NCBI RefSeq assembly: GCF_000979455.1 | Contig: NZ_JJOY01000023.1 | Coordinates: 62,001 to 126,000, forward strand | Length of the DNA: 64,000 bases | Direction of reading: 5' to 3' | DNA from: Methanosarcina sp. 2.H.T.1A.6 | Lineage (GTDB): Archaea > Halobacteriota > Methanosarcinia > Methanosarcinales > Methanosarcinaceae | In this document: piece after piece, positions 13,572-48,792 of the stretch | Position numbering within the stretch: position 1 is the stretch's first letter | Layout of the letters: the number at the start of each line of letters is the position of its first letter | Notes under the pieces: model-generated | What the model was told of the DNA's origin: nothing | Seen by the model: only the letters and a program-made list of their open reading frames with translations | Database searches by the model: none | Position numbers and translations under genes: made by a program

Positions 13572-14687
<1,116 letters not shown>

Positions 14688-14804
14688 AGATGAACTCTCC
14701 CTGGTCCGGAAACCTGTTTCAAACACCTCTGATAAGGTGAACTTCAGAATTCAAGGACTCAGGGAATTACTTAAAAACAAAAACGGCAGTAAAAGGGTAT
14801 AAGA

Positions 14805-15623
14805 ATGAAAGCCACAACCCGAAAAATCCGTCGAATTGAGCCTATGACTTTCGTCTTTTCCCTTATCTTGCTCGTTCTTTTCCTTTTTATTTTCCTGACT
14901 CTTGCAAACATGATCTTCGGGCAATTGGTGGGGGATTTTTCGGGCCTGGTAAAAGCCGCAGGAAACAGTTCAGTAATGGGAGCTATTTTCCTCTCTCTAT
15001 ATGCGGGTTTTCTTGCAACCCTCCTTGCTCTTTTTCTCGGAGCTCCGACAGGTTACATTCTTGCAAGGTTTGATTTTCCCGGAAAAAGGCTTGTTGAGAG
15101 CATAATTGATGTGCCTGTTGTAGTTCCGCATACGGTTGCAGGAATTGCCCTTCTTACGGTTTTCGGGTCAAGGGGGCTTATTGGCGGACCCCTTGAACCC
15201 TATATCCAGTTCCGCGATGCTCTTCCGGGAATTGTGGTCGCAATGCTTTTCGTGTCCCTGCCTTATCTGGCAAATTCTGCAAGGGAAGGCTTCAAAAGTG
15301 TGGACCCGAGACTTGAAAATGCAGCCCGTTCTCTGGGAGCTCCTCTCTGGAAAGCATTTTTCTTTGTAACCCTCCCGCTTTCAGCAAGGCATCTCTTAAT
15401 AGGTGCAGTCATGACCTGGGCAAGGGCTATAAGTGAGTTTGGAGCAGTCGTGATTATCGCCTACTACCCTATGATAGGGCCCACTCTTATCTATGACCGT
15501 TTTCTCTCTTACGGGCTTTCGGCGTCCAGACCCATAGCCGTACTGCTTATACTGGTCACGCTTTCGATATTTCTTGTAATAAGAGTCATTTCCGCAGGCT
15601 GGAGTATATATGATAGAGATTGA
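14805..15623 (+). CDS. wtpB: Molybdate/tungstate ABC transporter, permease
   Basis: A 272-residue membrane protein with about six helices. It has the ABC permease coupling motif near EGFKSVDPRLENAARSLGAP (about 165-185), where the EAA-type loop contacts the ATPase. VVVPHTVAGIALL is typical of ModB/WtpB. The gene begins 117 bases after wtpA and overlaps wtpC by 14 bases, so permease and ATPase are probably translated together. Confidence 0.95.
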   Translation: MKATTRKIRRIEPMTFVFSLILLVLFLFIFLTLANMIFGQLVGDFSGLVKAAGNSSVMGAIFLSLYAGFLATLLALFLGAPTGYILARFDFPGKRLVESIIDVPVVVPHTVAGIALLTVFGSRGLIGGPLEPYIQFRDALPGIVVAMLFVSLPYLANSAREGFKSVDPRLENAARSLGAPLWKAFFFVTLPLSARHLLIGAVMTWARAISEFGAVVIIAYYPMIGPTLIYDRFLSYGLSASRPIAVLLILVTLSIFLVIRVISAGWSIYDRD

Positions 15624-16656
15624 ATCCCTTTCCAGGATATGGAAGAATTTTTCCCTGAACGAGCTTAGCCTTAAAGTTGAATCAGGGGAATATTTTGTGA
15701 TCCTTGGGCCCACAGGAGCCGGAAAAACCCTGCTTCTTGAACTGATCGCAGGTTTTCATGTCCCTGATTCCGGAAGGGTCCTGGTTGATGGAAAAGATGT
15801 GACACACCTGCCTCCGGAAAAGCACAACCTTGCTTTTGTTTACCAGAATTATTCGCTTTTCCCTCACATGAGCGTGAAAAAAAATATCGAGTTCGGGATG
15901 AGGATGAAAAGAATAAAAGACCCGAAACGTGTTCTGGAAACTGCCCGAGATCTGAAAATCACCCATCTTCTTGACCGAAACCCTCTAACGCTTTCAGGAG
16001 GAGAACAGCAGAGAGTCGCCCTTGCAAGAGCCCTTGTCACTGACCCGAAAATTCTCCTCCTGGACGAGCCCCTTAGTGCGCTTGACCCCCGCACGCAGGA
16101 AAATGCCAGGGAAATGCTTTCGGTTCTCCATAAAAAGAATAAACTGACTGTGCTGCATATTACTCATGACCAGACAGAAGCCCGCATAATGGCTGACAGG
16201 ATTGCAGTCGTAATGGATGGTAAGCTTATACAGGTCGGTACTCCTAAAGATATTTTCGAAAATCCGGTTGATAGCCAGGTAGCCAGCTTTGTAGGTTTTG
16301 AAAACGTGCTGAAAGGCATGGTCATCTCTGCTGACCGCGGGCTTTTACGGATCGAGACCGGGGGAGCAGTAATCGACGCCTCGGGAGATATGGAAGCAGG
16401 AGATCAGGTCTATGCCTTCCTGAGGCCCGAAAACATAGCTTTAAGTAAAACTTCCACACAATCCAGCATCAGAAACTCTCTGCAGGGCAGGGTTACGGAA
16501 GTCTGGATACTTGGAGCTCTTGTGCGGGTGAAGGTTGATTGCGGGGTCCCCCTGAACGCCCTCATAACCCGGCAGTCGGCAGAAGAGATGGATCTCTCTC
16601 CGGGTGTCCCGGTCTATGCCCAGTTCAAGGCAAGTTCTGTCCATGTGCTCCGCTAA
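15610..16656 (+). CDS. wtpC: Molybdate/tungstate ABC transporter, ATP-binding protein
   Basis: A 348-residue ABC ATPase. Walker A is GPTGAGKT (33-40), the Q-loop is VYQN, the signature is LSGGEQQRVALARAL (from 128), Walker B is ILLLDEP (about 148-154), and the switch His is in HITHDQTEA. From about residue 230 there is a C-terminal regulatory domain. In the M. acetivorans ModBC structure the corresponding domain binds oxyanion and inhibits transport (trans-inhibition), so the same feedback is likely here. The start ATG lies inside the end of wtpB. Confidence 0.95.
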   Translation: MIEIESLSRIWKNFSLNELSLKVESGEYFVILGPTGAGKTLLLELIAGFHVPDSGRVLVDGKDVTHLPPEKHNLAFVYQNYSLFPHMSVKKNIEFGMRMKRIKDPKRVLETARDLKITHLLDRNPLTLSGGEQQRVALARALVTDPKILLLDEPLSALDPRTQENAREMLSVLHKKNKLTVLHITHDQTEARIMADRIAVVMDGKLIQVGTPKDIFENPVDSQVASFVGFENVLKGMVISADRGLLRIETGGAVIDASGDMEAGDQVYAFLRPENIALSKTSTQSSIRNSLQGRVTEVWILGALVRVKVDCGVPLNALITRQSAEEMDLSPGVPVYAQFKASSVHVLR

Positions 16657-16664
16657 AAAGGTGA

Positions 16665-17252
16665 ATGTCTGTGAAAGCGAAAACAAAGCTCTGGTTTACT
16701 GAAGATGGAAGAACGGTTATGGGTGCTGGCAGAGCTGAGTTGTTGAAAACAATTGACGAAGAACGATCTCTTCGGAAAGCCTGTCAGAAACTCGGAATCT
16801 CGTACAAGCACGCCTGGATGATGCTGAAAAAAATGAATGAAGCTCTCGGCGAACCTGCGGTAGTTACTGTGCGCGGGGGAAAGGACCAGGGTACTTTCCT
16901 GACCGAGCTTGGAAGAAAACTGCTGGTTGAATACGATCTGAACAAAAAACTGATCAATGAAGCCGTAGAAGACGAAACCTCCTGGGAAAACGTAGGTTTC
17001 AAATTTTCAGCCCGAAACAAGCTTCCCGGAAGGGTACTTGAAGTCGAGAAAAGCGGGCTTGTTTCCAAGATCACCATTGAGCTGGAACCTTCAGTCCTTA
17101 CTTCTGTAGTTACGGAAGAGGCAGTGGAAAAGCTGGATATAAAACCCGGAGACCGGATTTATGCGGTCATAAAATCCACTGAGGTAATGGTCGCAAAAGC
17201 TGTCAGTGAAAAAGGGCAGATAAAAACTGATTCAGCAGATTCTGATGAATAA
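16665..17252 (+). CDS. ModE-type molybdate/tungstate-responsive regulator (HTH plus TOBE domain)
   Basis: A 195-residue protein. The N-terminal part has a LysR-like winged helix (KTIDEERSLRKACQKLGISY, then KHAWMMLKKMNEALGEPAVV, about 25-65) typical of ModE. The C-terminal part (about 118-185, ARNKLPGRVLEVEKSGLVSK...) is one TOBE/Mop domain, which binds molybdate or tungstate. E. coli ModE has two Mop domains; a single one is common in archaea. It follows wtpC by eight bases, so the regulator is made with the transporter. The ATG at 16665 sits very close to its GGTGA; the GTG at 16671 is spaced better and may be the real start. Proposed targets are the four TATGT-N8-ACATA sites in this window (inference). 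Confidence 0.88.
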   Translation: MSVKAKTKLWFTEDGRTVMGAGRAELLKTIDEERSLRKACQKLGISYKHAWMMLKKMNEALGEPAVVTVRGGKDQGTFLTELGRKLLVEYDLNKKLINEAVEDETSWENVGFKFSARNKLPGRVLEVEKSGLVSKITIELEPSVLTSVVTEEAVEKLDIKPGDRIYAVIKSTEVMVAKAVSEKGQIKTDSADSDE

Positions 17253-27701: not shown

Positions 27702-28463
27702 TTATTTTTCCCCGTAGAGCAGATGATATTTGTAGTTATAGGCTATCCGTTTCCGGAATGGCATCTTCTTTTTCTGAATTTCCCTCACGTCTTTCAGGTC
27801 AAGGTCCTTTACATTTTTTAAACCTGCCTCCTTAAAGTATTCGAGCGTCTTTTCCGGCGGGACTCCGTGACAGTTAGGAAGTTCACTATTGATCTCTCTT
27901 GAATAGTGCCCTTTTCTGGGATTCCTTCTCTCGGCAAGCAAAGTGCAGAAATCGCTAACAAACCTCCTTGCCTTCGTTTCGAAGGTGCCGTCATTCCAGA
28001 CCCCGTCAACAACAATAAGCACTCCTCCTTTCTTCATTACTTTTTTCCAGTTCATGACTGCGGTATCGGGGTGCGGAAGGGTCCAGAGCAGGTGGCGGTT
28101 GACAACAACATCGAAGGTATCCTCCTCAAAAGGAGGGGCTTCGGCATCCCCTTTTTTGAAGACGCTGTCAAACCCTTTCTTAGATGCTTTTTCCCTGGCT
28201 TTTGCAAGCATTTTTTCCGAAAGGTCAAGGCCTGTAACGTGGTGTCCCATTTCAGCAAACAGCAGCCCTATTTCACATGTCCCGCACCCTACATCAAGTA
28301 TCTTTAGCCTGCCTGGAGGAAGCAGGCGTTTAAAAACACGTTTCCAGGCTTCCCTTTCGATTTCACTCTGAATTCCGTGCCCTTCCTGGCTGTCGTAGGT
28401 CTCGGATGAGACATCCCAGATACGAGCAATAGTTTGTTTTATCTGGTTTTCCTGAGTTGTCAT
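27702..28463 (-). CDS. Class I SAM-dependent methyltransferase, last gene of the ABC transporter operon
   Basis: A 253-residue methyltransferase. Motif I is LKILDVGCGTCEIG (about 53-66); the third Gly of the usual GxGxG is Cys here. Motif II is VTGLDLSEKM, motif III DAEAPPFEEDTFDVVVNRHL, and motif IV LWTLPHPDTAVMNWKKV. It is a clear paralogue of the methyltransferase at 33708-34475, which keeps the normal Gly. The ATG overlaps the stop of the upstream ATPase (ATGA), and GAGG lies before it, so it is co-translated with the transporter. The substrate is unknown; a molecule handled by the importer is a reasonable guess (inference). Confidence 0.88.
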   Translation of the reverse strand: MTTQENQIKQTIARIWDVSSETYDSQEGHGIQSEIEREAWKRVFKRLLPPGRLKILDVGCGTCEIGLLFAEMGHHVTGLDLSEKMLAKAREKASKKGFDSVFKKGDAEAPPFEEDTFDVVVNRHLLWTLPHPDTAVMNWKKVMKKGGVLIVVDGVWNDGTFETKARRFVSDFCTLLAERRNPRKGHYSREINSELPNCHGVPPEKTLEYFKEAGLKNVKDLDLKDVREIQKKKMPFRKRIAYNYKYHLLYGEK

Positions 28464-29167
28464 GTTTTAATGCCTCTATTTATATTTTCAATTGAGGTAA
28501 TGGTCCCGTTTTCAAGGTAAGCAATCCTGTGGCAGACTTTCCTTAACACTTCAAGGTTATGGGAGATCAGCAGGTAAGAAACCCCGGTTTCTCTCTGGAG
28601 TTTCTGCATAAGGCGCAGGATCTGAGCCTGGACTGAGACGTCAAGCATGGAAGTGGGTTCGTCAGCGACTATAAAATCAGGAGATAAAGCCATGATCCTT
28701 GCGAGCACTATCCTCTGGATCTCCCCTCCGCTGAGGTGGCCCGGATAACGGACAAGGTGTTCCGGACGAAGGCCAGTGAGTTCTGCCAGTTCTTCTCCTC
28801 GCTTCAGGAGGGAATCTTGCTTAAGCCCGGAATGGATTTTCAGGGGCTCGATAAGGTTTTCAAAGGCTTTCATGCGGGGGTCAAGGGAAGTTTCAGGGTG
28901 CTGGAAAATCATCTGGATTTTAGGGCGCAGTTTCCTAAACTCTTTTTTGCCCATGCTCAGGATATCCTCCCCATGGACCAGGATTTTCCCTCCGGTGGGT
29001 TTTTCGAGCCCTACAATACATCTTCCAATCGTGGTTTTTCCGGATCCGCTTTTTCCAAAAAGCCCCAGGGTTTCTCCGCGAGCTACTGAGAAACTGATGT
29101 TTTTGAACACCTCTGAAGTCCCAAACTTCATTGCCAGTTCGTTTACTGTAAGGACTGGAAATGACAC
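28460..29167 (-). CDS. ABC transporter ATP-binding protein (nickel/peptide family, NikE/DppF-like)
   Basis: A 235-residue ATPase: Walker A GLFGKSGSGKTT (about 35-46), signature LSGGEIQRIVLARI, Walker B FIVADEP, H-loop LLISHNLEV. The GTG start at 29167 is nine bases after GGAGG. It overlaps the other ATPase gene by 25 bases. It lacks the C-terminal oligopeptide extension of its partner and is shorter than most DppF proteins. Pairs of ATPases are normal for this transporter family. Confidence 0.93.
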   Translation of the reverse strand: MSFPVLTVNELAMKFGTSEVFKNISFSVARGETLGLFGKSGSGKTTIGRCIVGLEKPTGGKILVHGEDILSMGKKEFRKLRPKIQMIFQHPETSLDPRMKAFENLIEPLKIHSGLKQDSLLKRGEELAELTGLRPEHLVRYPGHLSGGEIQRIVLARIMALSPDFIVADEPTSMLDVSVQAQILRLMQKLQRETGVSYLLISHNLEVLRKVCHRIAYLENGTITSIENINRGIKT

Positions 29168-30084
29168 CTAACCCATCCTCCTTTATGTTTTTTTATTTCT
29201 GGATGTTTTTTAGAGCATTCGATTCCCGAGCACCTGCATCTTTCATTGAAAAAACAGCCTTCTGGAAGCTTTATCCTGCTTGGACTCTGCCCTCTCAGGG
29301 GAACAAGCCCGTTTCGAGGTTGAGCACTAATAAGTCCTTTTGTATAGGGGTGTACAGGCGTGTTCAGCACTTTTGAAGCCTCGTTCAGTTCTACAATTTC
29401 CCCTGCATACATCACAGCTATTCGGTCACAGACCTCAAGAGCCAGATCAAGGTCATGTGTGATAAGGAGCATTGTCTTTCCATATTCTTTTTTTATTTTT
29501 GTGAAAAGATCAACTGCGCCTGCCTTCGCCTCAGGGTCCAGACCTTTTGTAGGTTCATCGGCGATTAAAAGTTCGGGTTCAAAGGAAAGGGACATGCAAG
29601 CTATTAGCCTTTGCCTCATACCTCCAGATAATTGATGAGGATACAGGGTACAGAGTTTTTCGGGGTCTGTCAAAAAGAGTTTTTTCATGAGCTTCAGGGA
29701 TCTTTTCATCCCTTCCTTTTTGTCAACTCTCCTTTCTTCAAAAACCTCCTCTATCTGAAGTCCGTTTTTCAGGACAGGGTTCAGGGCACCGGCAGGGTTC
29801 TGAGGCATGAGTGAAATTTTCTTCCCTCTTATATTTCGGAGTTCTGAAGGTTTAAGGGAAAAGAGATTCTGCCCCTGGAAAATAACTTCTCCTGAAATCA
29901 CTGCACTTTCCGGGAGTAGCCGGAGCAGGGCAAGCCCTATTACAGATTTTCCTGATCCACTTTCCCCTATAAGCCCGAATGTTTCTCCTTCTTCTACTTC
30001 AAAAGACACGTTTGAGACTGCTTTTACAGCATTTTCTCCTGCAGGGAATTCAACAGAGAGGCCTCTTATTTCAAGCAGGCTCAA
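29143..30084 (-). CDS. ABC transporter ATP-binding protein (nickel/peptide family, NikD/DppD-like)
   Basis: A 313-residue ATPase: Walker A GLIGESGSGKSV (about 36-47), signature LSGGMRQRLIACMSL, Walker B LLIADEPTKGLD. It also has the oligopeptide/dipeptide C-terminal region (TPVHPYTKGLISAQP, then CFFNERCRCSGIECSKKHPE with a Cys cluster typical of DppD). The start is TTG at 30084, seven bases after a perfect GGAGGAG; the upstream permease ends in the overlapping TTGA. Confidence 0.94.
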   Translation of the reverse strand: MSLLEIRGLSVEFPAGENAVKAVSNVSFEVEEGETFGLIGESGSGKSVIGLALLRLLPESAVISGEVIFQGQNLFSLKPSELRNIRGKKISLMPQNPAGALNPVLKNGLQIEEVFEERRVDKKEGMKRSLKLMKKLFLTDPEKLCTLYPHQLSGGMRQRLIACMSLSFEPELLIADEPTKGLDPEAKAGAVDLFTKIKKEYGKTMLLITHDLDLALEVCDRIAVMYAGEIVELNEASKVLNTPVHPYTKGLISAQPRNGLVPLRGQSPSRIKLPEGCFFNERCRCSGIECSKKHPEIKKHKGGWVRCHFQSLQ

Positions 30085-30995
30085 TAGATTTCTCCTCCTT
30101 CATGGTTTGGGTCAAGGATATCTCTCATGCCATCCCCAAGGATGCTGAAAATCACTACTACGAAGGTTATGGCAAGCCCCGGAAAAATCGTCTGATAAGG
30201 AGCTGTTCTCATAAATTCTTTTCCTGCGGAAAGCATCGCTCCCCATTCAGGAACATCAGCAGGAAGCCCTATCCCCAGAAAACTCAGTGTGGCAATGGAG
30301 AGAATCACATGTCCGATGTCGATTGTGGCAAGTACAATTAGAGGGGCGATAGCGTTGGGTACTATATGCCTGCGGATGATATAGAAATCATCTGCCCCGC
30401 TTGTAACCGCAGAAAGTACAAACTCCTGCTTTTTAATGGAAAGAACCTGTCCTCTCATTACTCTTGCATATTTTGCCCACTGGACAATGGAGAGAGCAAG
30501 CATCAGGTTGAATACTCCTCTGCCAAGCACTCCCATTATGGCGAGGGCAAAAATAACTCCAGGAAAGGACAGAAAGACATCTATAACCCTTGAGATCCCT
30601 TCATCCACAATCCCTCCATAGTATCCTGCTGCACATCCCAGTGCAGTTCCTGTAATCAAAGAAATAAGCACAACTCCGAAGGCAATTGAGAGAGAAGTCC
30701 TGGCACCTATCAGGATCCTGCTCAACAGGTCTCTTCCAAGGTAATCTGTACCCAAAAGGTGATCTTCGGAGGGACTAAGGTTCTTGTTCCTGAGTTCGTT
30801 TGCGTTTGGGTCATAAGGGGAAATAAATGGGGCGAACAGTGCAAGCCCGGTAAAAAGCAAAAGTGCAACCAGGGCAAAAAGCATATCTTTTCTTTGAAAG
30901 AGTCTTTTTGAAAATTCGCTTCCGTAGACTTCTGTTATCAATACATCTTCTTTTTTCAACTTCTTAGCAAATGCATTGTCCATTGTATCAACCAT
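30081..30995 (-). CDS. ABC transporter permease (nickel/peptide family, NikC/DppC-like)
   Basis: A 304-residue permease. About six membrane helices; a preceding cytoplasmic N-terminus carries the OppC-type segment before helix 1. Seen: LLGTDYLGRDLLSRILIGAR (about 90-110), a hallmark of OppC/DppC/NikC, and the ATPase-coupling loop SAVTSGADDFYIIRRHIVPN (about 195-215). It overlaps both neighbours, so permeases and ATPases are translationally linked. Confidence 0.94.
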   Translation of the reverse strand: MVDTMDNAFAKKLKKEDVLITEVYGSEFSKRLFQRKDMLFALVALLLFTGLALFAPFISPYDPNANELRNKNLSPSEDHLLGTDYLGRDLLSRILIGARTSLSIAFGVVLISLITGTALGCAAGYYGGIVDEGISRVIDVFLSFPGVIFALAIMGVLGRGVFNLMLALSIVQWAKYARVMRGQVLSIKKQEFVLSAVTSGADDFYIIRRHIVPNAIAPLIVLATIDIGHVILSIATLSFLGIGLPADVPEWGAMLSAGKEFMRTAPYQTIFPGLAITFVVVIFSILGDGMRDILDPNHEGGEIY

Positions 30996-31929
30996 ACCTT
31001 ATCCGAGGGTCAAGATGTGTGTAGAGTATATCCACAATGAAATTCACAAGGAGGAACATGGTAACTATAGCAAGTACGCATCCCTGAACCATTGGCAAAT
31101 CCCTGGCCGAAATCGAGTCCACAAGCAGGCTTCCTATCCCTGGCCAGGCAAAGATCTTTTCAATCACTACTGCCCCTCCAAGCAGGTTTCCCATTTGAAA
31201 GCCAATAACAGTAACAACAGGGAGCATGGCGTTTTTTAAGGCGTGTCTGCTGATTATTTTCCATACAGGAAGCCCTTTGGCTTTTGCAAACCTTATGTAT
31301 TCCTGCCCAAGGGTTTCAAGCATGCTTGTCCTTGTAACCCTCATAACAGCAGCAACAGAGTGGAGAGAAAGGGCGGCTGCTGGTAAAATCAGGTTTTCCA
31401 GATTCCCGTAACCTGATACCTGGACAAGTTTTAGTTTTAGGGAGAATATTATGATAAGAATCAGTGCTATCCAGAATCCGGGCATCGAAACTCCAAAAAG
31501 CGTTACAATCCTTAGTATATGGTCCGAAATCCTGTTTTCCTGAAGAGCTGAATAGATTCCCAGGCTTACTCCTGCAAGTGTTGCAATAGCCATACTTGCC
31601 CCTGCAAGCTGGACCGTTGCCGGCAGGCGCAGAGTCAGGAGGTAAAGGACCGGTTTATTATATATATAGGAAGTTCCGATGTCCCCTCTCAATACGGCTT
31701 CTTTTACCCACCAGTAAAACTGCAGGTAAAGAGGGTCGTCCAGGTTGTACCTGCTTGAGATCTGGCTGAGCTGCTCTTCGGTTGCACTTTCCTCAAGACC
31801 AATAAGGGTGTGCTTGAGAATTAACTCAGCTGTGCCTCCTGGAATTACGTTCATAAGAAAAAAAGTCAGGGCGCAGACCGCAAAAACCGTAAATGCCATA
31901 AACCCTGCCCTTTTTATTAAATATTTCAT
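30988..31929 (-). CDS. ABC transporter permease (nickel/peptide family, NikB/DppB-like)
   Basis: A 313-residue permease with six helices. It begins MKYLIKRAGFMAFTVFAVCA and has NVIPGGTAE, GVSMPGFWIALILII, the coupling loop KAKGLPVWKIISRHALKNAM and the C-terminal GVVIEKIFAWPGIGSLLVDS motif usual in DppB/NikB (here with AVVIEK). TAGGAGGA precedes the ATG at a normal distance. A 107-base gap separates it from the binding-protein gene, where a partial terminator or processing site could raise binding-protein output. Confidence 0.94.
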   Translation of the reverse strand: MKYLIKRAGFMAFTVFAVCALTFFLMNVIPGGTAELILKHTLIGLEESATEEQLSQISSRYNLDDPLYLQFYWWVKEAVLRGDIGTSYIYNKPVLYLLTLRLPATVQLAGASMAIATLAGVSLGIYSALQENRISDHILRIVTLFGVSMPGFWIALILIIIFSLKLKLVQVSGYGNLENLILPAAALSLHSVAAVMRVTRTSMLETLGQEYIRFAKAKGLPVWKIISRHALKNAMLPVVTVIGFQMGNLLGGAVVIEKIFAWPGIGSLLVDSISARDLPMVQGCVLAIVTMFLLVNFIVDILYTHLDPRIRYG

Positions 31930-32036
31930 ACTTCCTCCTAAAACGGACAGAAGGCAAGAATACCCGTCTTTCCGTGTTATTTCAAGCGAGGGGAGGGTAT
32001 AGATCTAAAATCTACACCCATTCGAGCATCCCTTTT

Positions 32037-33677
32037 TTATTTTTCGATATACATACCTGCATTTATACGGTAATCATGGGCAGTCGGGTCAAACACATAT
32101 CCTTTTACGTGGTCTTTCTTTACAATTGCACAGCCGTAGTAAGCCACTATGATCATTGGCTGTTCTTCGTTTACAATGGCTTCGACCTCATTGAACTTTT
32201 TATAGCGCTCTTCCAGGTCCGTGATTTTTCTGGCTTCCGTTATCAGGGTATCTACTTTCTGATTAGAATATCCAGGTCCATTATCAGTGCCATTTGTCAT
32301 GTACCAGTTCGTTAGAATATATTCGGGGTCCGGAACCATTGCAATGTTATAAGCGGCAAGGTAGAGATCCCAGTCACCTTTTTCTTTTCGGTCATAAATT
32401 GACCCCATTTCCATTACTTCTATCTCTACGTCTATGCCTGCCTCCTTCAATTGGGCAGCCATAGCTTCAGCCATTGGAGGAAGGCCCGGCCTTGCGGAAT
32501 ATGTCATCATGTTGAGATTGAGGGATTTTCCGTCTTTGTCTCTTATCCCGTCCCCATCAGTGTCTACCCAGCCTGCAGCTGTCAGGAGTTCGTCAGCTTC
32601 CTCAAGGTCCCTTGTATAAGGGCTCAGGCTCTTATTTGCCCAGACCATCGTGGGCAGGAAAGGACCAGCAGCAGCTTCTCCTACATTGTAGAGTACATGT
32701 TCTGCGATTGCGTGCCTGTCTATGGCATAAGACATGGCCTGTCTGACTCTGATATCTTCAAGAGGCTCATGTTTCAGGTTGATATCGAGTTTGTAAACCC
32801 TCGGTGTTTTGTATTTTTCTACTGTAATGCCGTCTATCGCATCGATTCGGTCTGTTTCACTGTAGGGCACATCAACGGTAAAGTCAACTTCTCCATTTTC
32901 TATTGCCATTGCTCTTGTGTTTGGGTCAGGTATCCCTTTAAGAATCATCTTATCAAGCCCGACTTTTCCTCCCCACCAGTTTTCATTCTTAACAACCGTC
33001 AGAATTCTGGTCTGTTCGTCAAAGGATTCAAATTTATACGGACCTGTTCCAATGGGTTTTATGAACTCCTCTGATTCGTCAAAAGAAGAGGGGCTTATTA
33101 TGGCTGTATCGGGGTAATGGAGAATTCCAGGCAGAATGGGATTGATTTCCTTGGTTTTTATTTTGAGGGTATGGTCATCGACTGCCTCGATAGTGTCTAC
33201 CTTGAGCATGGATGCGACTTTCGTGTTTGCTTTAATGACATTTTCCAGGGTGAACTTTACTTCTTCTGCGGTCATCTCGCTTCCGTCATGGAAGGTAACA
33301 TTCTCTCTTAGTTTAAATTCCCAGGTATTTTCATCAAGCTGCTTCCAAGAACTTGCAAGCCCGGGTTTAAGGGAGAAATCTTCATTGGCACCAACGAGAG
33401 TTTCGGTTACTGCAGCTTTCTCACAGATAAGCGTTCCACCGTCTCCGTTTATAGTATTGATCGAGTCTATTTCCCACATTTCACCAAGTACAAGTGTATT
33501 ATCTTCAGAGTCTCCTTCTTGTTGGGAGACTGCATCAGATCCTGAGGCTACTTCCATCCCGGAAACAGCTTCTTTTGCGTTGTTTTCTTCTTTACTGCTG
33601 CATCCGGAAGTAATCAGGATGGCGCAGGTCAGCAGAATAATTAACAATATAAAGAAAGGGGAGTTTTTATTTTTCAT
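32037..33677 (-). CDS. ABC transporter substrate-binding lipoprotein (solute-binding family 5)
   Basis: A 546-residue exported protein with a lipobox (ILITSGC, Cys about 26), a Ser/Glu-rich linker and the family 5 fold: WEFKLRENVTFHDGSEMTAE (about 120-140), VRQAMSYAIDRHAIAEHVLY (about 310) and a DTDGDGIRDKDG acidic loop (about 375). Family 5 members bind peptides, nickel complexes, opines or sugars. A nickel role is attractive in a methanogen that needs Ni for F430 and CO dehydrogenase, but sequence alone does not settle it. The second gene of the operon, 30 bases after a methyltransferase. Confidence 0.93.
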   Translation of the reverse strand: MKNKNSPFFILLIILLTCAILITSGCSSKEENNAKEAVSGMEVASGSDAVSQQEGDSEDNTLVLGEMWEIDSINTINGDGGTLICEKAAVTETLVGANEDFSLKPGLASSWKQLDENTWEFKLRENVTFHDGSEMTAEEVKFTLENVIKANTKVASMLKVDTIEAVDDHTLKIKTKEINPILPGILHYPDTAIISPSSFDESEEFIKPIGTGPYKFESFDEQTRILTVVKNENWWGGKVGLDKMILKGIPDPNTRAMAIENGEVDFTVDVPYSETDRIDAIDGITVEKYKTPRVYKLDINLKHEPLEDIRVRQAMSYAIDRHAIAEHVLYNVGEAAAGPFLPTMVWANKSLSPYTRDLEEADELLTAAGWVDTDGDGIRDKDGKSLNLNMMTYSARPGLPPMAEAMAAQLKEAGIDVEIEVMEMGSIYDRKEKGDWDLYLAAYNIAMVPDPEYILTNWYMTNGTDNGPGYSNQKVDTLITEARKITDLEERYKKFNEVEAIVNEEQPMIIVAYYGCAIVKKDHVKGYVFDPTAHDYRINAGMYIEK

Positions 33678-33707
33678 TTCGGAACCTCCGTCTGTTTTTA
33701 ATGAATT

Positions 33708-34475
33708 TTATTTCCGGCCGCAGATGAGGTAGTACTGATAACTGCGTACAATCCGTTCACCTAACGGCATGTTCTCTTTCTGTGCCGCTCTTACCTCTTT
33801 CAGGTCAAAAACCTGGATCTTTTCAAAACCTTCACTCAACAGGTACTCCTTTACTTTTCCAAGCGGGGCCCCTCCGGAATGCGGAAGCTGGGCTTTGAGT
33901 TCATCGGAATATCCGGCGTGTCCTTTTCTGGGATCTTTTCTCTCAAGGAGCAGGGTTAAAAGGGAACCTGCACTTCTGCGGACTCTGGACTCTAGGGTCC
34001 CGCTGTCCCACACCCCATCGATAATCACAACCTTCCCATTTTTCCGCAGAATCCTCTTCCAGTTCTCTACGGCCGTTTTTGGATTAGGAAGGGTCCAGAG
34101 CAGATGGCGGCTGAACACAATATCAAAAGAAGACGTATCATAAGGGGGATTTTCTGCATCTCCTTCCTCAAAGGTTATGTCAGCTCCACGGGCTTCAGCT
34201 TTTGTTTTTGCTGCTTTCAGCATTTGTCTGGAAATGTCAATTCCAGTAACCTTATGCCCCATTTCAGCAAACAGTAAGCTTAATTCTCCTGTCCCGCAGC
34301 CGACATCAAGAATTTTCAAACCCTTTTTCGGAAAAACTTCCTGAAAAGCACGTTTCCAGGCATCTCTTTCTTTTTGGCTCTGGATCCCGTGTCCTGGATG
34401 GGTATCAAAAGTCTCGGATGCAAGGTCCCATTTATGGGCTACCATCTCTTTGATCTGGATTTCTGAAGACGACAT
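33708..34475 (-). CDS. Class I SAM-dependent methyltransferase, first gene of the ABC transporter operon
   Basis: A 255-residue methyltransferase with intact motif I (LKILDVGCGTGELS, about 53-66), VTGIDISRQM, DAENPPYDTSSFDIVFSRHL and LWTLPNPKTAVENWKRI. It is closely similar over its full length to the methyltransferase at 27702-28463, including a shared N-terminal GHGIQS motif and C-terminal tail. With its paralogue it brackets the five transporter genes. This gene leads the operon, so enzyme and transporter are made together. The substrate is unknown; maturation of a metallophore or of the imported compound is a testable guess. Confidence 0.9.
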   Translation of the reverse strand: MSSSEIQIKEMVAHKWDLASETFDTHPGHGIQSQKERDAWKRAFQEVFPKKGLKILDVGCGTGELSLLFAEMGHKVTGIDISRQMLKAAKTKAEARGADITFEEGDAENPPYDTSSFDIVFSRHLLWTLPNPKTAVENWKRILRKNGKVVIIDGVWDSGTLESRVRRSAGSLLTLLLERKDPRKGHAGYSDELKAQLPHSGGAPLGKVKEYLLSEGFEKIQVFDLKEVRAAQKENMPLGERIVRSYQYYLICGRK

Positions 34476-35144
34476 TCATCAGTACTTGTTAATCCTCTAA
34501 TTAATATTTTTCTATTTTGTAATACTTATTCTAATTAATTTATTCATTAGTAACATAGGATTCCCATATACTTACTATGATGTTGACAAAAACTATACGA
34601 ACATTTGTGTATGTATTACTGAAAACCTCCTAAAAAATAGATTTTTTGTCTTTCGAGTCAGTTACAAGAATCCGGACGACTCAATACTGACAGAAGGGCA
34701 AAATTGGACGGGTAAAATGGTGCCAGGCTTTTTCCTGTACAACTGGTTTGCTTTTTCAACTGGTCAAACCCGATATGTTATATCCGGGGCAGGGTGCAGA
34801 ATAGAAAAACCTTAAGATTTCAGGCAGGCTGCCCGGATCAATAATATATTTTTGTTTATAGGGGAAATTGGCCTTTTATAAAAAAGTTTTCACTATTGTC
34901 TTTTTTGAAGGAAAATCCCTTTTCCATCGACAATTTTATAAAATACTTGATTATATATTTTGAGCGCAAGATTCCAGTCTTCCGTTTTTATAGATATGTT
35001 GAGCTTTACATATCTGGAAGCTGTAGAGTTCTGGCTGGCGTTTTTTTCTGTGACCGGCCAATTATAAGGGGGTTCTGTCCCCTGTATTGAAATCTTGCCC
35101 CTGAATTATACCATAAATTAATGAATTTCTGTGAAAAAGTTACC
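34476..35144. other. Divergent intergenic region between the transporter operon and fmd
   Basis: About 670 bases. It holds the promoter of the minus-strand operon and upstream DNA of fmd. The open frame 34896-35090 has no ribosome binding site and no recognisable product. No RNA gene is seen. Confidence 0.5.
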
Positions 35145-35167: not shown

Positions 35168-35191
35168 CGTTATGTTGAAATCTACATAATG
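35168..35191 (+). promoter_or_regulatory. ModE-like operator 1 of the fmd operon
   Basis: CGTTATGT-TGAAATCT-ACATAATG. It has the same TATGT-N8-ACATA core as at wtpA and modD and overlaps the predicted transcription start. It matches the E. coli modA operator layout closely. Confidence 0.75.
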
Positions 35192-35251: not shown

Positions 35252-35275
35252 CGTTATGTTTATTTAAACATAACG
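35252..35275 (+). promoter_or_regulatory. ModE-like operator 2 in the fmd leader
   Basis: CGTTATGT-TTATTTAA-ACATAACG. The arms are perfect inverted repeats (11 bp each side of TT). It lies 84 bases after site 1, eight helical turns, so two bound dimers could interact on one face of the DNA. A weak TATA-like ATTTATCC (about 35222-35229) might mark a second promoter. Confidence 0.78.
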
Positions 35276-46819: not shown

Positions 46820-47668
46820 TCAAGCAGACTTATTTTCTTCTCGTTCTTTTCTTCTGAAAGCTACCTTCTCCCCGCACCACTTATGTAACTTTTTCGTTCC
46901 TCCCGCCTCACTGACCACCGTAAGCATTGTTAAGGGGTCAATAATTCGGGTTCCCATTATTGCAGTAATACCTCTACTAAAAAACGGTGCCGGATAGAGA
47001 GGCGCGCTTGGGCCGAGCAGGACAACTTCCCTTGCTGCACCCCGGAGGGAAAGAAGTTCATCAAAAGTCCGGTTGGCGAGGGTGCTTGCACTGAGAATTA
47101 TCACATCCGATGAAGGGAGTATTTCTCTGGCTTTTTCCGAGGGCAGGGTCATGGTTTGAGGAAATTCGATTTCACGCTTTTCAAGGACTGTAAGCTTATC
47201 GGTTATTTTCAGTATTCTCGGGACAAGAGGGCCGAAGTAACCTACCATTGCAACTTTATCTTCAGGTTTTATGAGGTCAAGGATATCTATGCTTGAAACA
47301 GGAAAGTGTTCGGGCTTCAGGTCACAGAGCATGTGGGAAAGCGCGTTTGCAGTTGCAACTCCAACTGCAGCTTCAAGTGGGTTTTCTGACAGAACAAGTT
47401 CAAGCAGTTTATCCGCAGTTTTGCCTTTCAGGGTATCTGCAAAACCGAGGGCAGGGCAGCCTGAAAACTCATAGAGGGGGGTGCAGGCCACCCCTCCGTA
47501 GCTTTCTGAAAGCAGGACTCCGGTATAGGCAAGCCCTATCCTGACGTCTTTTACCTCGATTTCTTCAAAGGAGGGGCCAAAGTCTTTTTTGAGCGCACTT
47601 ACAAGGGTGGGCAGGATTCCTTTTTCTTCTTTTTTCCCGGTTTCCTGTAAATTTTTGCTTTCTGGCAT
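46820..47668 (-). CDS. DUF364 (putative heavy-metal chelation) protein
   Basis: A 282-residue protein with an N-terminal DUF4213-like part (VRIGLAYTGVLLSESYGGVA) and a C-terminal DUF364 Rossmann-like part: MVGYFGPLVPRILKITDKLT, then VIILSASTLANRTFDELLSL and PSAPLYPAPFFSRGITAIMG. Structural relatives suggested a metal or cofactor chelation role; no enzyme activity is established. AGGTGG lies five bases before the ATG. It follows modD by 24 bases, so the two are co-transcribed, and the pair has a ModE-like site upstream. A role in molybdate/tungstate handling is therefore a fair inference. Confidence 0.88.
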   Translation of the reverse strand: MPESKNLQETGKKEEKGILPTLVSALKKDFGPSFEEIEVKDVRIGLAYTGVLLSESYGGVACTPLYEFSGCPALGFADTLKGKTADKLLELVLSENPLEAAVGVATANALSHMLCDLKPEHFPVSSIDILDLIKPEDKVAMVGYFGPLVPRILKITDKLTVLEKREIEFPQTMTLPSEKAREILPSSDVIILSASTLANRTFDELLSLRGAAREVVLLGPSAPLYPAPFFSRGITAIMGTRIIDPLTMLTVVSEAGGTKKLHKWCGEKVAFRRKEREENKSA

Positions 47669-47692
47669 GAGTCCACCTTTTATTTTCTCAGC

Positions 47693-48484
47693 TTACAGTC
47701 TTTCGATCTTCGTTGTAAAGTCAAGAGGAGTTGCATAATAGGGAGCGCTTGTGACGATTATGTCCACTAGAGGGGCGTATTCGGGGATTCTTTTTGCCTC
47801 GATTCCTCCGACTGCAAGTTCAAGTTTCGGGTTCAGCTTCTTAAGTTCGGGCCCGACCTTCTGCATTTCTGCCGGAGACAGGTGGTCAAGGAGCATTATA
47901 TCTGCATGTATTGCGTACCTGAGGGCTTCTTCCCTCGACCGGGGCTCGATTTCTATTTTTTTCATAGCTCTGAGTTCTCCCAGTTCCCCGGCAACTTCCA
48001 GGTGGTTCTGGCTGAGCTGGATGGAATCGCTGAGGGAGTTCCTGTGGATGTCTCCTCCGCCTGCCCGGACGGCTTTAAGCTCAAATAAGCGGACTCCGGG
48101 GTGGGTCTTTCGGCTTGTTGCAATAATAAGGCCAGGGTTTGCCTTCCGGCCAGCGCTTACGAAAGAGGCTGTTCTGGTGGAAATGGCGCACATGAGCGAG
48201 AGGAATGTCTGGGAAACCCTCCAGAGCTTGAACAGGAGTTTTAGGTCTCCTTCGGCTTCGATAATCGCATCTCCGGGCTTGAAAGGCTGACCATCTTTGA
48301 GGCAATTCAGGTTTTTCAGACCTTTTCTTTCATAATATTCCGCCAGGTCGCCGGCGCAGGCACAGATCCCTTTTTCTCTCGAAACAATCCTCATTTTTCC
48401 CCTGCCTTCAAGCCTGAGCAGTTCTGCGCTTTCATCCTGATAGGGACAGTCTTCATAAAAGTAAAGCTCAAAAAGGTCTATCAT
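47693..48484 (-). CDS. modD: ModD-like protein (nicotinate-nucleotide pyrophosphorylase fold)
   Basis: A 263-residue protein related to quinolinate phosphoribosyltransferase (NadC). Seen: TRTASFVSAGRKANPGLIIA, TSRKTHPGVRLFELKAVRAGG, RNSLSDSIQLSQNHLEVAG, and LELAVGGIEAKRIPEYAPLV, i.e. the PRPT barrel residues as in NadC but with ModD-type changes. ModD genes often lie with molybdate transport genes; the reaction is unknown. The ATG at 48484 has GAGG six bases upstream; a TTG at 48496 would overlap it. Leader of about 170 bases with a ModE-like operator at 48649-48672. Confidence 0.87.
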   Translation of the reverse strand: MIDLFELYFYEDCPYQDESAELLRLEGRGKMRIVSREKGICACAGDLAEYYERKGLKNLNCLKDGQPFKPGDAIIEAEGDLKLLFKLWRVSQTFLSLMCAISTRTASFVSAGRKANPGLIIATSRKTHPGVRLFELKAVRAGGGDIHRNSLSDSIQLSQNHLEVAGELGELRAMKKIEIEPRSREEALRYAIHADIMLLDHLSPAEMQKVGPELKKLNPKLELAVGGIEAKRIPEYAPLVDIIVTSAPYYATPLDFTTKIERL

Positions 48485-48648
48485 GTTTTGCCTCAAAAAT
48501 TCCCTTCATAAATTTCTTATTTTTATGTTTCTATTTTCCTTTGCTGCCGTTTTTTTCCCTTGCTACCGTTTTTTCGTATCAATTTCTTTGATTCCGGCCT
48601 GTGTCCACTTTATTTCTAATTTTTCCACGCACCTGTATGGGATTTAAA

Positions 48649-48672
48649 TGATATGTTTGAACATACATAACG
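48649..48672 (-). promoter_or_regulatory. ModE-like operator upstream of modD-DUF364
   Basis: On the minus strand: CGTTATGT-ATGTTCAA-ACATATCA. It has the TATGT-N8-ACATA core of the wtpA and fmd sites. A minus-strand TATA-like ATTTATTAA (48674-48682) lies just before it, so initiation near 48655 would fall inside the site. Confidence 0.72.
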
Positions 48673-48792
48673 GTTAATAAATCTTTTTACAAAAATAGTG
48701 TATACAAATATTATTTAAAAGTCGTATAAGGCGCAGGCTACGCTTCATTCCTCAATTTTCAAAAAAACAAATAAAGGCGTTTTCTTCTCTAT

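Follow-up and report, generated by a model that had tools for sequence, protein, structure and literature searches.

What do modD and a DUF364 gene do behind an operator of the ModE type? The two genes lie side by side in the window, the whole stretch of 64,000 nucleotides from Methanosarcina sp. 2.H.T.1A.6 that was analysed. To our knowledge, no reaction has been assigned to ModD, a long-annotated member of molybdenum operons, or to DUF364 proteins, for which structures have been available since 2010. In Methanosarcina, for which genetic methods are established, both genes follow the same ModE-like operator, which makes their role testable. A sequence-only reading of the window had proposed that they form one operon and act together in an undescribed pathway of molybdenum (Mo) or tungsten (W) storage, sensing or cofactor chemistry.

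Organisation of the modD-DUF364 locus

The features of the locus, from the DUF364 gene back to the putative promoter, are:

46820..47668, minus strand: DUF364/DUF4213 gene, 282 aa (PF04016 141 bits, PF13938 74 bits; relatives 3npg and 3l5o)
47669..47692, minus strand: gap of 24 bases between the modD stop and the DUF364 start (read from the sequence)
47693..48484, minus strand: modD, a QPRTase paralog of 263 aa from the conserved ATG (PF01729/PF02749)
48485..48649, minus strand: leader from the ModE-like site to modD, holding the putative junction of modABC loss (blastn to locus L054)
48650..48671, minus strand: ModE-like palindrome GTTATGT-ATGTTCAA-ACATATC, 1 mismatch, conserved at the operon head in other genera
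48709..48720, minus strand: TATA-like AT-rich element TTTTAAATAATA, upstream of the site (sequence reading; conserved in L054, L056 and L060)

The longest modD ORF (47693-48496, minus strand) begins at a TTG at 48496. A Met conserved in modD orthologs, Met5 of that ORF, points to ATG 48484 as the likely start of modD. In a Pfam profile search the DUF364 product matched PF04016 (E 3e-41, 141.1 bits against a cut-off of 23) and PF13938 (E 1e-20, 74.3 bits against a cut-off of 23.5), passing both. Both ORFs are intact and retain all family-invariant residues, and they share one strand with 24 bases between them, exactly as had been described. The ModE-like site had been placed over the predicted start. 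This does not hold for the start codon, as the site is 165 bases upstream of ATG 48484; at that distance and near the TATA-like element, which is inferred to be the promoter of modD-DUF364, it would at most overlap the start of transcription. A search of the region for riboswitches gave no Rfam match, and matches in a bacterial promoter and terminator scan were not above chance, the models being bacterial and unsuited to archaea.

ModE-like sites and their regulator

The operator pattern, GTTATGT-N8-ACATAAC, was derived in this analysis, and binding of ModE to it is predicted. With up to two mismatches it occurs five times in the window, compared to 0.11 expected from 100 dinucleotide shuffles, none of which had five. 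All five sites are upstream of Mo/W genes, namely wtpA, the formylmethanofuran dehydrogenase operon (three sites) and modD. Those outside the modD locus, together with the regulator gene, are:

13573..13594, plus strand: ModE-like site before wtpA (pattern match)
13596..16656, plus strand: wtpABC tungstate/molybdate transporter, adjoining modE (WtpA above cut-off; WtpB and WtpC are best matches but under cut-off)
16665..17252, plus strand: modE, putative molybdate/tungstate-responsive regulator (TIGR00637, TIGR00638 and TOBE match)
35253..35274, plus strand: perfect ModE-like palindrome preceding the formylmethanofuran dehydrogenase operon (35169-35190 and 34993-35014 are weaker matches)

The modE product matches TIGR00637 with an E value of 2e-17 but below the cut-off of that model, and Mop with an E value of 4e-17. 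Across the 4.07-Mb genome there are eight sites with no more than one mismatch, against one for a reversed-pattern control. Seven precede Mo/W genes: wtpABC, the fmd operon (twice), modD, a second modABC, an fwd operon, and an operon for an ABC substrate-binding protein, whose role in Mo/W is inferred; the eighth is inside an unrelated ORF. Among 31 Methanosarcina genomes, the same threshold gave 199 sites and 19 for the reversed control. ModE elements in Archaea were reportedly noted before, by Studholme and Pau in 2003. Of 112 Methanosarcinaceae genomes, 100 encode ModE, so that its presence does not explain the distribution of DUF364 described below.

Several further arrangements were seen in the course of this survey. 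The three sites before the formylmethanofuran dehydrogenase operon stand in tandem, and for the first gene of that operon ATG 35333 is a more probable start than position 35189, where its longest ORF begins. Also within the window, two similar SAM methyltransferase genes (27702-28463 and 33708-34475) lie on either side of a gene set for an oligopeptide/nickel-type ABC transporter (27702-34475). The operon of the ABC substrate-binding protein (L089:4585-9947, in the same genome from C11:260584 onward) continues with genes for a SAM methyltransferase, a radical-SAM-like protein, a FecCD-type permease and an ATPase, all named from our own reading of the sequences, and is a candidate for another system of Mo/W (or V) uptake, one that includes unexpected enzymes. 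A 5.75-Mb Methanosarcina genome (G001) has nine sites with up to one mismatch in 15 kb amid nitrogenase-type genes (L080:3513-18198), and two more between a FecCD-type permease and a further modABC (L081:1173-1419), representing a candidate ModE regulon for alternative nitrogenases.

The full operon and the probable loss of modABC

Most of the Methanosarcina regions that were examined have modA-modB-modC-modD-DUF364 behind the same site, and this full operon is also found in another genus (G184, G322 and G323). With up to two mismatches, the site heads 23 of 27 Methanosarcina operon regions and is also present at the operon head in other genera, including Methanohalophilus and Methanococcoides. 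The window copy has no modABC. Alignment by blastn with the nearest full operon, L054, gave two matches, one extending from the upstream gene across the site as far as 48647 (81% identity) and the other from 48549 into modD (90% identity). Between them, L054 carries about 2.8 kb with modABC that is absent from the window, and nt 48550-48646 of the window, which contain the junction, have no match in L054. This junction is consistent with a deletion of modABC that fused the site to the modD leader. Loss is likelier than gain, because another genus has modABC at the same place.

The window is not alone in this. Five other Methanosarcina operons (G004, G012, G014, G026 and G028) are without modABC and have kept the site, modD and DUF364. 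Two more (G011 and G002) have lost both modABC and modD, leaving DUF364 directly behind a ModE-like site, and in G002 the DUF364 frame is broken. On the best reading, modD and DUF364 are what is left, at the 3′ side, of a Mo/W-uptake operon under ModE control, of modABCD type with DUF364 added, that was trimmed in this lineage. The earlier view of a single operon under a ModE-type site is thus upheld by conservation of the site, gene order and strand in several genera, and a link of the pair to mod genes is supported for Methanosarcinaceae, where the ancestral operon includes the molybdate transporter. The genome has other Mo/W transporters, wtpABC and the second modABC, under ModE-like sites of their own.

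Conservation of the modD-DUF364 pairing

Orthologs were sought in the 112 Methanosarcinaceae genomes, with a threshold for ModD of E below 1e-40. DUF364 was found in 48, ModD in 87 and both in 46. The two genes are adjacent in 42 of the 48 DUF364 genomes, always on the same strand (42/42), with modD first in 40 cases and DUF364 first in two. In the six others, the genes are split over draft contigs (G021 and G025), ModD is missing (G011 and G029), a fragmented ModD is encoded elsewhere (G002), or the genes are apart (G330). Outside this family the picture is different: none of 33 sampled DUF364 neighbourhoods contained ModD, although mod/wtp-type transporter genes were near DUF364 in three (L139, L142 and L145). 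That modD and DUF364 are rarely neighbours elsewhere, which would have counted against the earlier proposal, is thus contradicted within Methanosarcinaceae and holds for the neighbourhoods sampled beyond it.

The dependence is also one-sided. DUF364 nearly always occurs with ModD (46/48), as expected if the two act together, but 41 of the 87 genomes with ModD have no DUF364, and in two genomes DUF364 is alone. ModD without DUF364 is the rule in all Methanolobus; at the Methanolobus loci that were read, modD has a thioredoxin-like gene and further housekeeping genes as neighbours, usually with no ModE-like site close by, suggesting that ModD may act beyond Mo/W. Four Methanococcoides loci (L169, L170, L206 and L213) have a near-perfect site and modD, and DUF364 is absent.

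Two further loci carry modD in other company. In G017, a 92%-complete genome in which a search for modE and DUF364 found neither, modBC and modD adjoin nitrogenase-type genes (L171:4226-11228). A contig binned as an Anaerolineae bacterium has wtpA, modABC-modD, wtpB and wtpC in a row (L225:3118-10345). Its ModD is 53% identical to archaeal ModD, and the arrangement would reflect either gene transfer or a binning error.

ModD and the quinolinate site

The window ModD scores under the cut-offs of both relevant models, with 136.6 bits against nadC (TIGR00078, cut-off 198.4) and 120.1 bits against modD (TIGR01334, cut-off 178.85). An Archaeoglobaceae ortholog (L209), 59% identical to it, passes TIGR01334 with 180.0 bits. 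In a phylogenetic tree the window protein groups with ModD and not with NadC; the ModD clade, which includes Archaeoglobaceae and Anaerolineae MAG orthologs and, as the one bacterial ModD, the Cereibacter protein on a long branch, is separated from NadC with support of 100/99. A structure model of the protein (pLDDT 86) has the fold of quinolinate phosphoribosyltransferases (TM 0.85 to QAPRTases).

Active-site residues were compared between 11 ModDs and 7 NadCs. Equivalents of Arg139, Lys140, His161, Arg162, His175 and Glu201 are conserved in all 11 ModDs, and those of Arg105 (in an AER motif) and Asp222 in all except the Cereibacter protein. The equivalent of Lys172 is Ser, Thr or Phe in 11/11 ModDs (Ser162 in the window protein) and Lys in 7/7 NadCs, so that the window ModD does not have the full quinolinate site (Arg105, Arg139, Arg162, Lys172 and His175). 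In the M. tuberculosis QAPRTase, Lys172 and Arg105 hold the C2 carboxylate of quinolinate and Arg139 and Arg162 the C3 carboxylate, and the mutants R105A, R139A, R162A, K172A and H175A show no detectable activity (PMC4065032). Loss of Lys172 makes it unlikely that ModD is a normal quinolinate enzyme. The loss of this C2-carboxylate ligand with retention of the C3 ligands Arg139 and Arg162 is also a hint to the substrate, for which a related aromatic carboxylate is a natural guess. Equivalents of Ser248 and Gly270 of QAPRTase are replaced as well, which leaves the use of PRPP by ModD less than certain.

The DUF364 protein

The DUF364 product is predicted to combine an Enolase-N domain with a Rossmann-like domain, in a structure model of modest quality (pLDDT 72.7). 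The best Foldseek matches of the model are 3l5o and 3npg (E 2e-15), with a TM of 0.77 to 3l5o by target length. By motif, the pocket residues described for Dhaf4260 (3l5o; PMC2954201) have conserved counterparts in our mapping, for example Gly143, Glu163 and Asn108. Two cysteines, Cys71 and Cys265, never vary among the Methanosarcinaceae sequences compared; most outside sequences lack Cys265. The structure paper of 2010 had already associated DUF364 with molybdate and tungstate transport genes by gene context, including Mbar_A1307 of M. barkeri (PMC2954201). Given this published link, and since modABCD operons and their control by ModE are known, to call the pathway undescribed was an overstatement. 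Among the papers searched, none covers both ModD and DUF364, and neither protein appears in a paper on tungsten maturation (PMC13197769).

Proposed role and alternatives

The explanation that best covers these results as a whole, and in which we have moderate confidence, is that ModD and DUF364 are accessory enzymes of a modABCD-type uptake operon, induced at low Mo/W and acting after uptake. ModE loaded with molybdate or tungstate would bind the palindrome near the transcription start and repress; when Mo/W is short, modD-DUF364 would be transcribed. ModD would be a phosphoribosyltransferase-type enzyme whose acceptor would not be quinolinate but probably a different aromatic carboxylate. DUF364 has two domains, an adenosine-binding-like cleft and the family-specific Cys71 and Cys265, and may bind or work on the ModD product, the metal or a nucleotide. 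Together they would help to retain, deliver or insert scarce Mo/W, whichever transporter had brought it in. It is the persistence of the pair without modABC that suggests this placement; that both genes outlast the transporter genes would put both steps after uptake, and a role independent of the transporter would in turn explain how the pair survives modABC loss. That the two genes take part in Mo or W supply is very probable, and that they are Mo/W-regulated and functionally linked is probable. A more specific version, which we regard as a long shot, is that the ModD product is a nucleotide of an aromatic carboxylate, of the pyridine type or another, which DUF364 modifies or loads with metal, giving a small organic Mo/W ligand. 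In principle such a ligand would resemble the nickel-pincer nucleotide found in lactate racemase.

The alternative that deserves most attention, although we think it unlikely, is that DUF364 is a passenger behind modD in one archaeal family and works in some other metal or stress pathway. The absence of ModD from all 33 outside neighbourhoods fits this, as do the bacterial DUF364 genes adjoining FecCD-type iron transporters, bacterioferritin or a VWA/AAA pair, and the many genomes with ModD and no DUF364. A passenger would hardly be expected to stay adjacent to modD over several genera, or to be kept behind a ModE-like site once modABC and modD had gone (G011 and, with its frame broken, G002), and the three outside loci with mod/wtp-type transporters near DUF364 also speak against it.

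ModD might instead be a second quinolinate/nicotinate phosphoribosyltransferase for NAD synthesis, its place in a Mo operon being historical. The QAPRTase fold, the slightly higher score with the nadC model, the retained equivalents of Arg105, Arg139, Lys140, His161, Arg162 and His175, and the Methanolobus genes outside any Mo context are all compatible with such an enzyme. We nevertheless rate it as improbable, because the same genome encodes a bona fide NadC elsewhere (313 bits), and because the lysine required in the M. tuberculosis enzyme is lost throughout the ModDs compared and kept throughout the NadCs, with Ser248 and Gly270 also changed and a clearly separate ModD clade. Least credible, along with the organic ligand, is that the window genes are a decaying remnant of the uptake operon with no present function. 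The loss of modABC and the broken modD or DUF364 of some relatives (G002 and G027) point that way, but both window ORFs are intact, the operator has been kept, and the same reduced form recurs in the five other Methanosarcina operons. Accessory enzymes acting after uptake remain our preferred explanation for the pair.

Comparison with known systems

ModD shares its fold and most active-site residues with NadC, from which it differs in forming a separate clade and in the replaced equivalents of Lys172, Ser248 and Gly270. The DUF364 protein belongs to the same DUF364/DUF4213 family as Dhaf4260 (3l5o) and PH1506 (3npg), with which it shares the predicted fold and a metal-transport gene context (PMC2954201); the Methanosarcinaceae group is distinguished by its two invariant cysteines and the modD neighbourhood. 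As in the bacterial ModE regulon, a ModE-like protein with HTH and Mop/TOBE parts is accompanied by a palindromic operator that precedes genes for uptake and for Mo/W enzymes, but the archaeal palindrome, the predicted ModE target, is one derived here from sequence. A further parallel is with bacterial modABCD operons, such as that on plasmid pRSKD131B of Cereibacter sphaeroides, in which a QPRTase-family ModD (TIGR01334) is likewise beside molybdate transporter and TOBE-domain genes. Bacterial and archaeal ModD have in common the signature [VI][TS][ST][AS]PYxAxPxD, the lost Lys172 and one clade against NadC, whereas the window ModD is about 29% identical to the bacterial protein and under the TIGR01334 cut-off. 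The archaeal operon differs further in carrying DUF364, and the window copy in having kept modD and DUF364 without modABC.
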